Of a DNA stretch of 64,000 nucleotides, positions 3,727 to 64,000 are shown in pieces. Position numbers and translations under genes: made by a program. Each line of letters begins with the position of its first letter. The stretch's first letter is position 1. The notes below the pieces were generated by a model. That model saw nothing but the letters and a program-made list of their open reading frames with translations. It was not told where the DNA came from and ran no database searches. The stretch lies in the NCBI RefSeq assembly GCF_009764355.1, contig NZ_LNUA01000011.1, forward strand, positions 62,001 to 126,000, written 5' to 3'. This DNA comes from Companilactobacillus bobalius. Its GTDB lineage: Bacteria > Bacillota > Bacilli > Lactobacillales > Lactobacillaceae.

Positions 3727-4545
3727 ATGTTTGGATTTAAGGTAGTGCGTCAAAATCATGTAGGATTGGTTGAAACTTTGGGGAGATACAAGCGTGAAGT
3801 TAACGCTGGTTTGAGTTTTTACATTCCCATTTTTCAAAAAGTTAGAATAGTGGACCTTGCAATGATACCGTTGTCCTTAAAAGGATATTCCGTTATTACC
3901 AAAGATAACGCTGAAGTACAGACAAACGTTACATTAAATTATCACGTTACCGATGCGCGTAAATTCGAATATGAAAACAGCAACTCAGTTGAATCAATGG
4001 TGCAATTAGTCCGTGGACACTTACGTGATATTATCGGTAAGATCGACTTGAACGAAGCACTAGGGTCAACCTCAAAGATCAACGCAGATTTAGCCGCAGC
4101 AATCGGGGATTTGACTAATACCTACGGAATCAAAGTAGACCGTGTAAATATCGATGAATTGAAACCATCAGCTTCCATCACCGAATCAATGGAGAAACAA
4201 ATCAGAGCTGATCGTGAGAAGACAGCCGCCATTGCTAAAGCAAATGGTGAAGCCAGAAGTATTGAAATTGAAACAAAAGCCAGAAACGATGCGACCGTCT
4301 CAACAGCCAAAGCCGAAGCAGCTGCAACCATCGCCAGAGCCGATGCCAAAGCATACGAAATCAAGAAGTTGAATGACATGTTAGCATCAGCCGACAATAA
4401 ATACTTCACAGATCAACAAATCCAAGCATTCGCAGCCTTGGCAGAATCTTCAAGTAATACCGTTGTGATGAGTAAAGAAGATATCGGAAAGTTCTCCGAA
4501 ATCCCCGTTACCGCACAAGTTATGAATCAGATTAGTAAAAAGTAG
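3727..4545 (+). CDS. SPFH/band-7 domain protein (prohibitin/stomatin-like)
   Basis: The 272-residue product starts directly in the SPFH domain (VVRQNHVGLVETLGRYKREVNAGL, then VQTNVTLNYHV, RDIIGKIDLNEALG and YGIKVDRVNIDEL) and continues into a long Ala/Lys/Glu-rich coiled coil (about residues 160-225, with ADREKTAAIAKANGEARSIE and repeated AKAEAAATIARADAKAYEI). Such proteins oligomerise at the membrane and organise membrane microdomains or support proteases. Unlike QmcA or stomatin there is no clear N-terminal membrane helix. The GGCGGGG ribosome binding site sits just ahead of the ATG. Its partner is the ribbon-helix-helix gene upstream; its stop codon lies at the left edge of the structured repeat. 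Confidence 0.85.
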   Translation: MFGFKVVRQNHVGLVETLGRYKREVNAGLSFYIPIFQKVRIVDLAMIPLSLKGYSVITKDNAEVQTNVTLNYHVTDARKFEYENSNSVESMVQLVRGHLRDIIGKIDLNEALGSTSKINADLAAAIGDLTNTYGIKVDRVNIDELKPSASITESMEKQIRADREKTAAIAKANGEARSIEIETKARNDATVSTAKAEAAATIARADAKAYEIKKLNDMLASADNKYFTDQQIQAFAALAESSSNTVVMSKEDIGKFSEIPVTAQVMNQISKK

Positions 4546-4698
4546 AGAGAGCGGAGTGAGGGCGGTTAGCCTCCGAGGATTTGCCTAAGTACTGAAATCG
4601 CACGCGGATTTTGCGGGCAATTTCAATACTGTAGCAAACCGGAAGAGGTTGCCCTCACGCAGCTCGTTTCCACTATATTGCCAAGAACATTGGTTATC
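4543..4698 (+). repeat. Full copy 2 of the structured hairpin repeat
   Basis: It starts at the stop codon of the SPFH gene and ends at GGTTATC. The arms fold on each other: GTGAGGGC pairs with GCCCTCAC, CCTC with GAGG, TTTGC with GCAAA, and an apical stem AGTACTGAAAT pairs with ATTTCAATACT. Conserved internal segments are CCGAGGATT and AACCGGAAG. Compared with the copy at 62809 the paired positions change on both sides, which supports an RNA or cruciform structure. There is no T-run, so it is not an ordinary terminator. Confidence 0.85.
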
Positions 4699-7124: not shown

Positions 7125-7901
7125 GTGGAATCAGAACAAAATATTAGTATGATGCAGATCGTAGGCATCTTACGCAAACATATAAAAGCAATTTTCGGAA
7201 CAACTATTGTTGTTACTTTGGCAGCAATTTTCGTTACCTTTTTCGTTATGACACCAAAATATAGCGCCACTACACAAATTTTGGTCAATCGTAAATTATC
7301 AGATGATATGCAATCAGCGCAGTTCCAACAAGTTCAGGCTGATGTTCAGATGATTAGTACTTATAAGGATATTATTACTAGTCCTACTGTTTTAAGAGAT
7401 GTTAATAAGGAAGTAAGCGCGTATCCGGGATATCCGGGTTCAATAAATGCGTTAAAGAGTTCGTTATCCATCAGTAATGCTCAGAATTCTCAAGTGTTTT
7501 CAGTAACGGCAAAATCTTCTGATGCAGGAACTGCAGCAGCAATCGCTAATATGACAGCAAAAGTTTTTAAGAAAAAAGTAGTAAAAATTATGAGTGTTAA
7601 TAATGTTTCAATTGTTTCTGAAGCTACGGCAAATACAAAACCGGTAAGTCCTAGAAAGGCCTTAAATGTTATAGCTGGTGTAATTATAGGCTTAATCTTA
7701 GGAATAGCATTAGCATTTATTCGTGAGTTAACTGATAGAACAGTTTCAACTGAGACGTTCTTAACTGATGATTTAGGACTTACGAGTTTGGGAACTGTTG
7801 CTGAAATTGATCAAAAAGATATTGAAAGAACTGTTGAACATAAGAAAGTTCAATCTAAATTGAGTATCAATAAATCTTCAAGAAATCATAGAAGGGTCTA
7901 G
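7125..7901 (+). CDS. EPS chain-length determinant / tyrosine-kinase modulator (EPS operon 1)
   Basis: A 258-residue Wzz/CapA-type protein with two membrane helices (about residues 25-46, TTIVVTLAAIFVTFFVM, and 177-197, VIAGVIIGLILGIALAF) flanking an extracellular loop with the conserved PKYSATTQILVNRK and VISEATANTKPVSPRKA segments. It activates the partner kinase encoded next and sets polymer length. GTG start with GGAGG upstream. It is the first gene of the operon, eight bases ahead of the kinase gene. Closely similar in sequence to the gene at 24100. Confidence 0.9.
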   Translation: MESEQNISMMQIVGILRKHIKAIFGTTIVVTLAAIFVTFFVMTPKYSATTQILVNRKLSDDMQSAQFQQVQADVQMISTYKDIITSPTVLRDVNKEVSAYPGYPGSINALKSSLSISNAQNSQVFSVTAKSSDAGTAAAIANMTAKVFKKKVVKIMSVNNVSIVSEATANTKPVSPRKALNVIAGVIIGLILGIALAFIRELTDRTVSTETFLTDDLGLTSLGTVAEIDQKDIERTVEHKKVQSKLSINKSSRNHRRV

Positions 7902-60817: not shown

Positions 60818-60825
60818 ATTTTGTA

Positions 60826-60995
60826 ATCAGATAGAGGCGCAATTTTTATTAGTCGTGTTTTGGAGTACGATAGGGTACCTTGAAAAAACATTAAAGGAAA
60901 AGTTGCCGAAATCATTTTATCCCTACTTGATAAAGTTGATTGGGCTATTACTTAATAGGTGGTAGACTGTCGTACGTTCAGAGAATGAGTTTCTT
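60826..60995 (+). promoter_or_regulatory. Lysine riboswitch (L box)
   Basis: Conserved L-box blocks appear in order: AGATAGAGGCGC, AGT, AAAGGAAAAGTTGCCGAA, TTGATTGGGCT and AGACTGTC, closing with AGAATGAG. Lysine binding is expected to favour the terminator at 61042-61083 and shut off the permease gene. Confidence 0.88.
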
Positions 60996-61041
60996 ATTTT
61001 TTGAAAAACGTTGAGCTATTGATTATTGGGATAATTATAAT

Positions 61042-62589: not shown

Positions 62590-62807
62590 GAATATAACGC
62601 TAAGAGAGTGCCTACTCATAAACCTTTCAGAGAAGCGATGGTTGGTGAAAATCGCAAAGGCTTTTATTCCAGCATTCTGGCAACGGGTAATGCCGTTCGG
62701 GTTGATCCGATAAAGTCTGAAAGTGCAGTGTATTTGCGTACACTGAAACTGGGTGGTACCGCGAATGGTCGATTCGTCCCTTTATTGGGATGAATCGGCC
62801 TTTTTTT
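62590..62807 (+). promoter_or_regulatory. T-box leader for serS
   Basis: The T-box sequence GGGTGGTACCGCG (62751-62763) is complete, followed by a terminator stem GGTCGATTCGTCCC/GGGATGAATCGGCC with seven T. Stem I features (AGAGAAGCGATGG and GGTGAAAATCGC) precede it. TTCC at 62667-62670 contains UCC, a serine codon, in the expected specifier region, consistent with serS downstream. Uncharged tRNA-Ser would stabilise the antiterminator. Confidence 0.9.
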
Positions 62808-62808
62808 G

Positions 62809-62959
62809 TAGAGAGCGGAGCAGGGGCGTTCAGCTCCCGAGGATTAAGACTACTTATCTCAGTCGGTAGCGAAGCGCCGGCAGAGATAAGTTGACTTAAC
62901 CGGAAGGAGTTGTCCCTGCGAAGCTCGTTTCCACTATAAAAAATAGAACAATGGTTATC
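62809..62959 (+). repeat. Full copy 3 of the structured hairpin repeat, inside the serS leader
   Basis: It starts TAGAGAGCGGAG one base after the T-box T-run and ends GGTTATC. The arms pair: GCAGGGGC with GTCCCTGC, CTCC with GGAG, TTAAG with CTTAA, and apical ACTTATCTC with GAGATAAGT. Conserved internal segments CCCGAGGATT and AACCGGAAG match the copy at 4543, while the stems differ by paired changes. It lies 72 bases before the serS ATG, so antiterminated serS mRNA would carry it in its 5' untranslated region. Confidence 0.85.
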
Positions 62960-63031: not shown

Positions 63032-64000
63032 ATGTTAGATATCAAATTGATTAGAAAAGATCCAGAATGGATCAAGAACAAGTTAGCATCACGTGGAGTA
63101 ACTAGTGATGAAATTGATGAATTGCTTGGCTATGACAGCAAACGTCGTGAATTATTAGTTAAGAGTGAAACCCTTAAAGAAAAGAGAAACACTGTTTCTC
63201 AAGGTATCGCTACTAAGAAACGTAATAAAGAAGATGCCAGTGACGAAATTGCTGCTATGAAGCAAGTTGGTTCAGACATTAAGGACTTGGATGCTGAGCT
63301 TGAAGAAACAGAAGGAAAAATGAACTATATCTTAGTTCGTCTACCTAATATTCCTGATGATTCAGTTCCTGTTGGACCTGATGAAAGTACTAACGTTGAA
63401 ATCCGTAAAGTCGGTGCTATTCCTAAGGAAGGTTTCAAACCTCGTCATCACTGGGATATCGGTGAAGAACTAGGAATCTTAGACTTTGAACAAGCTACTA
63501 AAGTTGCTGGTTCACGTTTTGTTTACTACATTGGCATGGGTGCTAGACTTGAACGTGCTGTTTACAACTTTATGTTGGATCAACACCAAAAGGAAGGCTA
63601 TACAGAAGTTATCCCTCCATACTTGGTAAACAACGATGCCATGTTTGGTACAAGTCAATTCCCTAAGTTTACTGAAGACGTTTATACAGTTATGGTTGAT
63701 GAAAACCCACTAACTTTGATTCCTACAGCTGAAGTACCTTTGACAAACTACTTTGCCGGTAAGATTTTGAATGAAAAAGACTTACCTAAGTACGTTACAG
63801 CTCTAACACCTTGTTTCCGTTCAGAAGCAGGTAGTGCTGGTCGTGATACTCGTGGTTTGATCCGTATGCACCAATTCAATAAAGTTGAAATGGTTAAGGT
63901 TACAAAACCAGAAGAATCATACAATGAACTAGAAAAATTGACAGCTAATGCTGAAAATATTTTGAAACAATTAGGACTACCATATCACGTTATCGTACTT
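63032..64000 (+). CDS. serS: Seryl-tRNA synthetase (3' truncated by the window)
   Basis: The ATG at 63032 follows AAAGGAG. The open frame encodes at least 323 residues: the N-terminal coiled-coil tRNA-binding arm ([20 protein letters not shown], long Lys/Glu helices to about residue 100), then class II motifs: [42 protein letters not shown] and the motif 2 segment [28 protein letters not shown]. It charges tRNA-Ser. The gene runs off the right edge, with about 100 residues missing including motif 3. Controlled by the T-box leader upstream. Confidence 0.96.

Follow-up and report, generated by a model that had tools for sequence, protein, structure and literature searches.

A stop-codon-anchored hairpin repeat of Lactobacillaceae as a candidate folded RNA of 3' untranslated regions

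BOX repeats are short intergenic folding elements that are transcribed and affect mRNA, and EFAR repeats are characterized by modular assembly and length variation. In passages of PMC3733652, EFAR is classed among the MITEs, transcription and an effect on mRNA are stated for RUP, NEMIS and ERIC, and REP palindromes are given a length of 20-40 bp. The Efa-1 repeat of E. faecalis is described in passages of PMC2267715 and PMC1590033 by a model of 163 bp, 65 copies and a pair of adjacent stem-loops. The same passages place the hairpin repeats Efa of E. faecalis and Ype of Y. pestis near gene 3' ends or between genes, and for such repeats near 3' ends they mention mRNA stabilisation as a preliminary result from unpublished data (PMC1590033, PMC2267715).

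In this study, a repeat was analyzed that occurs in a window of 64,000 nucleotides from Companilactobacillus bobalius (contig NZ_LNUA01000011.1, positions 62,001 to 126,000). The repeat resembles EFAR/Efa-1, as described in these passages, in being non-coding, intergenic and hairpin-forming, in its similar size and in its preference for gene 3' ends. However, when compared by description only, two adjacent stem-loops are found there and one dominant long hairpin here, and stop-codon anchoring, present in the lactobacillar element, is not described in the passages on EFAR/Efa-1. REP/REPIN palindromes with RAYT are likewise extragenic, hairpin-forming and of high copy number, which would fit a system of the REP/REPIN type that depends on a Y1 (RAYT/IS200) transposase for its movement. 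Such a system is extremely improbable here, as the element measures about 130 nt (131-position model) and is thus much longer than a 20-40 bp palindrome, and 11 of the 16 element-carrying genomes gave no Y1_Tnp match (5 have one). A Y1 transposase as the driver was disfavoured by the lack of a match in these 11 hosts. Integron attC sites resemble the element in keeping structure more than sequence and in lying behind genes, whereas the copies of the element in genome G403 (2.4 Mb, single contig) are scattered over the chromosome. ERIC, NEMIS/Correia, RUP and BOX are not known to be as restricted in position and orientation as the lactobacillar element, which is mostly gene-sense and stop-anchored, forms head-to-tail arrays and has a covarying interior across a bacterial family. 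These four groups share with it a short, non-coding, intergenic and folding form in many copies.

The best reading of the element is an ERIC/BOX/EFAR-like hairpin repeat in a stop-codon-anchored variant. Judged from sequence, it is probably a MITE-like dispersed element that acts as a folded RNA in 3' untranslated regions (UTRs), perhaps on mRNA stability.

Two full copies of about 150 nt each (4546-4698 and 62810-62959) and one internally deleted copy (269-371) were located on the plus strand of the window. The hairpin core of copy 1 spans 4546-4677 (model positions 1-131, 136.1 bits) and is followed by a tail at 4678-4698 that ends in GGTTATC, with the right end inferred from the sole alignable empty site, L115. 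From sequence and fold, its main stem consists of the 5' arm GTGAGGGC (4556-4563) and the 3' arm GCCCTCAC (4651-4658), and in the alignment CCGAGGATT (4573-4581) and AACCGGAAG (4637-4645) are the conserved 5' and 3' sides of an internal loop. The core of copy 2 spans 62810-62938 (114.1 bits), and its tail at 62939-62959 also ends in GGTTATC. The main stem of copy 2 reads GCAGGGGC/GTCCCTGC, in which three adjacent pairs are changed on both arms and one more pair is turned to G-U. The model matched copy 3 over 269-350 (22.9 bits, E = 5e-4). The original prediction had described three related copies, with such compensatory changes between the two full ones, and no T-run. Its quoted letters, coordinates and pairings were correct on re-reading the window, the third copy was still detected despite its deletion, and the 3' ends of the copies viewed confirmed the lack of a T-run. 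The segment AGCTCGTTTCCACTATA was found exactly at 4661 and 62922, and with up to three mismatches it gave 4 matches compared to 0.15 expected. The left-end 10-mer alone was weak, with 5 matches at up to one mismatch, a number reached by 8 of 100 shuffles.

Copy 1 begins at the base following the TAG stop codon (4543-4545, plus strand) of an HflK/HflC-like gene at 3727-4545, which matched NCBIfam hflK with E = 9.5e-24 and 84 bits, under the curated cut-off of 159. The first two bases of copy 3 complete a TAG stop codon at 268-270. The serS T-box leader with its terminator and T-run (62593-62806, plus strand) immediately precedes copy 2, the start of which adjoins this T-run. The Rfam match of the T-box (62593-62784, E = 3e-15) is under the gathering score and is therefore absent at the default threshold. 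The inferred start codon of the following gene is at 63032-63034 on the plus strand, 72 nt after the copy 2 tail. We take this gene to be serS, as judged from its protein sequence and the T-box rather than by a family search. The stop-codon start of copies 1 and 3 and the T-box adjacency of copy 2 are absent from the original prediction.

The fold energy was -62.1 kcal/mol for copy 1 (z = -5.0 compared to shuffles) and -60.6 kcal/mol for copy 2 (z = -5.2). The whole element consists of a single long hairpin with interruptions, about 125-133 nt in length, and a clade-specific AT-rich tail. A small second hairpin was present in the tail of copy 1, and another small one in the centroid fold of copy 2. 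The covariance model R1 (131 positions, 31 pairs) was built on alignment A3, which contains 52 of 57 copies; L002, a near-duplicate of L001, and the deleted or aberrant L011, L020, L052 and L054 were left out. In alignment A2 (52 copies, L036 excluded and L002 included), both-sided changes were observed in 22 of the 31 predicted pairs. On the R1 structure, 96.7% of the A3 cells pair, compared to 30-44% in slid controls. Cells with changes on both sides number 334 in A3, compared to 96 (sd 7.5) in shuffles, and the covariation score is 0.601 against 0.184 when shuffled. For the weakest covariation measure, further pair types, 33 of 500 shuffles reached the observed value. The basal GAGC/GCTC helix is nearly invariant, and the remaining five helices vary and compensate. 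Unpaired residues were kept in the aligned copies, in line with the predicted constancy of the unpaired segments. GAGSATT and AASC recur on opposite sides in the Lactobacillaceae copies viewed and are missing from several more distant relatives of the order sample.

All pairs of four model-fitted alignments together held 362 G-U and 51 A-C mispairs, and when the count was restricted to columns in which 85% or more of the pairs are Watson-Crick, the numbers were 91 and 29. This excess of G-U is supportive only: it would suggest that the gene-sense strand is the one that folds, and the RNA rules of the covariance model favour G-U, which counts against the folded-RNA reading. Of 264 rows, which include opposite-strand shadows, 218 had the better fold on the modelled strand, and the mean energy was -59.5 kcal/mol compared to -50.9 kcal/mol for the complement. 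The covariation far above both controls, the kept unpaired residues, the G-U excess and the gene-sense orientation behind stop codons support selection for a form that is folded and single-stranded.

Covariation alone would leave DNA-level palindrome correction possible, and the position and orientation are the stronger argument for an RNA. The DNA-level alternative is a DNA-only MITE with a TA target, moved in trans by a transposase of the IS630/Tc1 type or similar. Its covariation would arise from quasi-palindrome correction and replication template switching, and its position from the purging of harmful insertions. We regard this as rather unlikely, since palindrome correction accounts for part of the covariation and fails to explain the orientation, the position and the conserved mismatches. 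It should erase the extra A of GGATT/AACC, the loop adjacent to the basal helix and the G-U pairs, yet all of them persist in the Lactobacillaceae copies viewed. Furthermore, with a strict pattern for one subfamily, no autonomous copy was found in the 2.4 Mb of G403. Within 6 kb, the nearest matching right end never lay more than 262 bp from its left end, and of 49 left ends 13 lacked a right end altogether.

The stop-codon position is the main new fact beyond the original prediction. Over all sets, the upstream ORF was co-directional in 145 of 170 clusters, and in 118 of these the element started -2 to +6 nt from the stop codon. The start was at -2 in 53 of the 145, where the element's own AG completes a TAG stop. 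The window, two plasmids and the Companilactobacillus loci gave 65 same-direction and 15 opposite clusters (2 of 82 had no upstream ORF), and 57 of the 65 started at -2 to +6. The family sample of 27 loci (31 clusters) gave 25 same and 6 opposite, with 20 of the 25 in this range. In G403, the upstream ORF had the same direction in 55 of 59 clusters, and 41 of the 55 were at -2 to +6 nt, compared to 4.7 of 54 expected if placement was uniform in the gap. Stop codon usage among G403 ORFs of at least 100 aa was TAA 1222, TAG 532 and TGA 178.

The clusters with an opposite upstream ORF count against the folded-RNA reading. These were 4 of the 59 in G403 and 21 of the 111 clusters having an upstream ORF in the other sets, where 2 more had none. 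ORFs were called mechanically at a minimum of 60 or 80 aa, and some of the exceptions may be missed short genes. Among 19 exceptional or unusual copies that were inspected, a few had a short same-direction ORF ending there and most had none. No tRNA gene was found beside the exceptional copies, the one tRNA-Leu in L063 being more than 1 kb off.

Between co-directional genes of G403, 31 elements were sense and 2 antisense. A strand-neutral insertion of a near-palindrome leaves this bias and the 41 of 55 starts at the stop codon unexplained, which argues against a DNA-only MITE. Among G403 clusters in lagging orientation, with origin and terminus judged from the GC skew of the fetched part, 17 followed the upstream ORF and 3 did not. 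Thus, in G403 the orientation of the element is tied to transcription rather than to replication, and insertion on the lagging strand was disfavoured as its cause in this genome.

A sense orientation independent of replichore also fits an insertion coupled to RNA or transcription, with entry into ribosome-free RNA or R-loop single strands past stops or terminators. By itself, such entry would yield both the sense orientation and the stop-codon position without selection. Both kinds of site, after a stop codon and after the T-box T-run, are ribosome-free, and the element in L051 also lies behind a terminator T-run. The mobile element would then insert in sense into the ribosome-free nascent transcript, where it can supply its own stop (TA|G). 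Such an element would be carried in 3' UTRs as a passenger made of structured RNA, across Lactobacillaceae and perhaps wider in the order, with putative new mobilising machinery. We consider this route improbable, since selection against other positions is simpler and one G403 copy (L277:3145-3271) is antisense to a lysine-riboswitch leader.

The antisense copy at the lysine riboswitch also counts against the folded-RNA reading. It extends 24 nt into the 3' end of the aptamer, and the aptamer of that leader (L277:3248-3419, minus strand) is still a full-length Rfam match with 93.6 bits. An interruption of the riboswitch by this copy was dropped as a candidate because the aptamer is full-length and only its 3' end is overlapped.

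The place of the element between the stop codon and the next gene would suit a family of transcription terminators or attenuators as well. This is very improbable, because the element has no T-run and so lacks the G+C-rich hairpin with T-run of an intrinsic terminator, and because the serS copies follow a complete T-box terminator. Furthermore, in a crude test terminator-like sites followed 23 of 59 elements compared to 145 of 300 background genes, about as frequently as behind other genes. By this test, the element neither replaces nor requires a terminator. The same proportions fit read-through, without proving it, and they count among the points against the folded-RNA reading.

Empty orthologous sites were compared with occupied ones. 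The HflK-like gene carried the element in 3 of 30 rows (the window, L113 and L114) and none in 27. In the 16 closest element-free rows, the protein end differed from that of the window protein (272 residues) by about one codon at most, and the remaining 11 rows were more distant. A left junction TA|GAG at the stop codon was observed in four pairs (L050/L182, L018/L032, L023/L182 and L079/L252), taken among at least 57 pairs listed, many of them redundant or at serS. This TA|G junction is a point in favour of the DNA-only MITE. The right junction was alignable once only, between the window and L115. In the pair L093/L186, the protein at the occupied site has one residue less, which counts against the folded-RNA reading. 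Overall, the empty sites showed little or no protein truncation, the protein end being kept or changed by about one residue.

At serS, at least 12 of 31 rows had hairpins between the T-box and the start codon, and in L154, L159 and L160 these were internally deleted remnants. The hairpin was absent in other rows, such as L148 and L151. The serS flanks of G004 were 100% identical to the window over 265 nt on the left and 96% identical over 477 nt on the right. The interior of the first hairpin, however, was only 61% identical to the window in G004 and 58% in G006, and the whole serS element of the window was 95% identical to one elsewhere in G001. In light of the near-identical flanks and differing interiors, the interiors were exchanged or replaced at a fixed site. 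The DNA-only MITE is favoured by interiors that differ as blocks and by the three internal deletions, as long palindromes should give. A different long repeat (containing GGAACAAAAATNGAAATTGGCTCAG) lies before serS in L147, L149, L150 and L155, with parts of it in L153. No hairpin of the present family was found in L147, L149, L150 and L155 within the 420 nt viewed upstream of serS.

Two L. plantarum plasmids (L001/L002) carry the element behind celB, with 77-80% identity. The celB element of these plasmids and that of C. mindensis (L052) have nearly the same flanks and different interiors. This pattern, read from sequence comparison, suggests a transfer between genera with replacement of the interior.

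The exact two-end pattern gave 53 stretches over the GTDB collection, 52 of which were from Companilactobacillus or an uncultured 'Lactobacillus' MAG. The 53rd, a Streptomyces stretch (L041), was taken as a chance match and dropped. In eight host-genus genomes (seven named Companilactobacillus species and one MAG, with up to 150 candidates scored in each), R1 found 50-134 matches per genome at E ≤ 1e-3, and in eight further genomes 14-87. These counts may include opposite-strand hairpin shadows, as 84 matches corresponded to 65 copies in the 2.4 Mb of G403. The covariance-model search of Lactobacillaceae proposed with the original prediction was run with strict filters on 397 genomes, scoring 8 candidates in each. 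It gave at least one match at E ≤ 1e-6 in 168 of them. The other 229 genomes gave no match among the candidates scored, which argues against an essential function and is a point against the folded-RNA reading. In the order sample, R1 matched 27 of 295 genomes at E ≤ 1e-5 (11 candidates scored).

Head-to-tail arrays were observed in 12 of 82 clusters of the window, plasmids and Companilactobacillus, 11 of 31 of the family sample and 6 of 59 of G403. The element is short, non-coding, dispersed and present in many copies per genome, as is characteristic of a MITE of the ERIC/RUP kind. No element match was found in phage records, and the exact pattern was absent from IMG/VR. The original prediction had recognized no named RNA family, and in agreement with it Rfam 15 gave nothing over the element at the gathering threshold in the window and 15 loci, most of them with copies. 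A permissive threshold gave only weak, chance-like matches over the copies scanned. Among the matches listed from open-licence titles and abstracts, this family was not described, which is weak evidence of absence.

Two pieces of the order-sample element L312 (R1, 45 bits) matched E. faecium plasmids with 80% identity. R1 found nothing in the fetched E. faecium plasmid region similar to L312, and an enterococcal kinship through this element is only a lead. Plasmid searches with four order-level relatives were empty for three and gave one E. faecium match. The plasmid segment similar to L312 (L328:601-776) covers the last 41 nt of a hexose kinase gene as annotated.

In the preferred folded-RNA reading, the hairpin would be co-transcribed as the start of the 3' UTR. 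The folded RNA would most likely shield the upstream mRNA from 3' exonucleases or set its processing. Insertions elsewhere or in antisense would mostly have been lost, or never made, and the interiors may have been exchanged through recombination between copies or repeated insertion. The predicted folded RNA under selection agrees with the covariation, the G-U excess and the gene-sense position, but the element is not a single-locus noncoding RNA or riboswitch, being a high-copy dispersed repeat with interiors that differ at the same site. For this reason, the MITE alternative and the RNA idea of the original prediction were each partly right.

Dozens of genes per lactic acid bacterial genome carry the same folded element at the stop codon. 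If it is active on mRNA, it would form a shared layer of 3'-UTR control without a matching Rfam family. If it is a mere passenger, its stop position and gene-sense orientation would point to an unusual, perhaps transcription-coupled, insertion route. In either case, the covarying set of copies yields a covariance model that works and a clean handle for experiments.

The tails behind the hairpin, including those of copies 1 and 2, are clade-specific, with ATAGAACMATGGTTAT, CGGGCAACGTTTGGYAAC and GCCACTGCCTATATAA types that are sometimes repeated. In G403, TGCCTATATAA was found 16 times in the 200 nt that follow an element and one time at another place. A second, AT-richer subfamily of G403 starts with GTGTGACAAAAC, for example at L218:17199-17325 and L176:15661-15787. 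The tail GTTATGTCACA can pair with this start, so that two alternative pairings seem possible on base complementarity.

Two further features of the window were observed. A lysine riboswitch (Rfam RF00168) lies at 60824-61026, and its counterpart in G403 is the leader with the antisense copy described above. The gene at 7125-7901 resembles polysaccharide chain-length/export proteins (TIGR01006, 179 bits, under the cut-off of 296), and a capsule or exopolysaccharide cluster may follow it.
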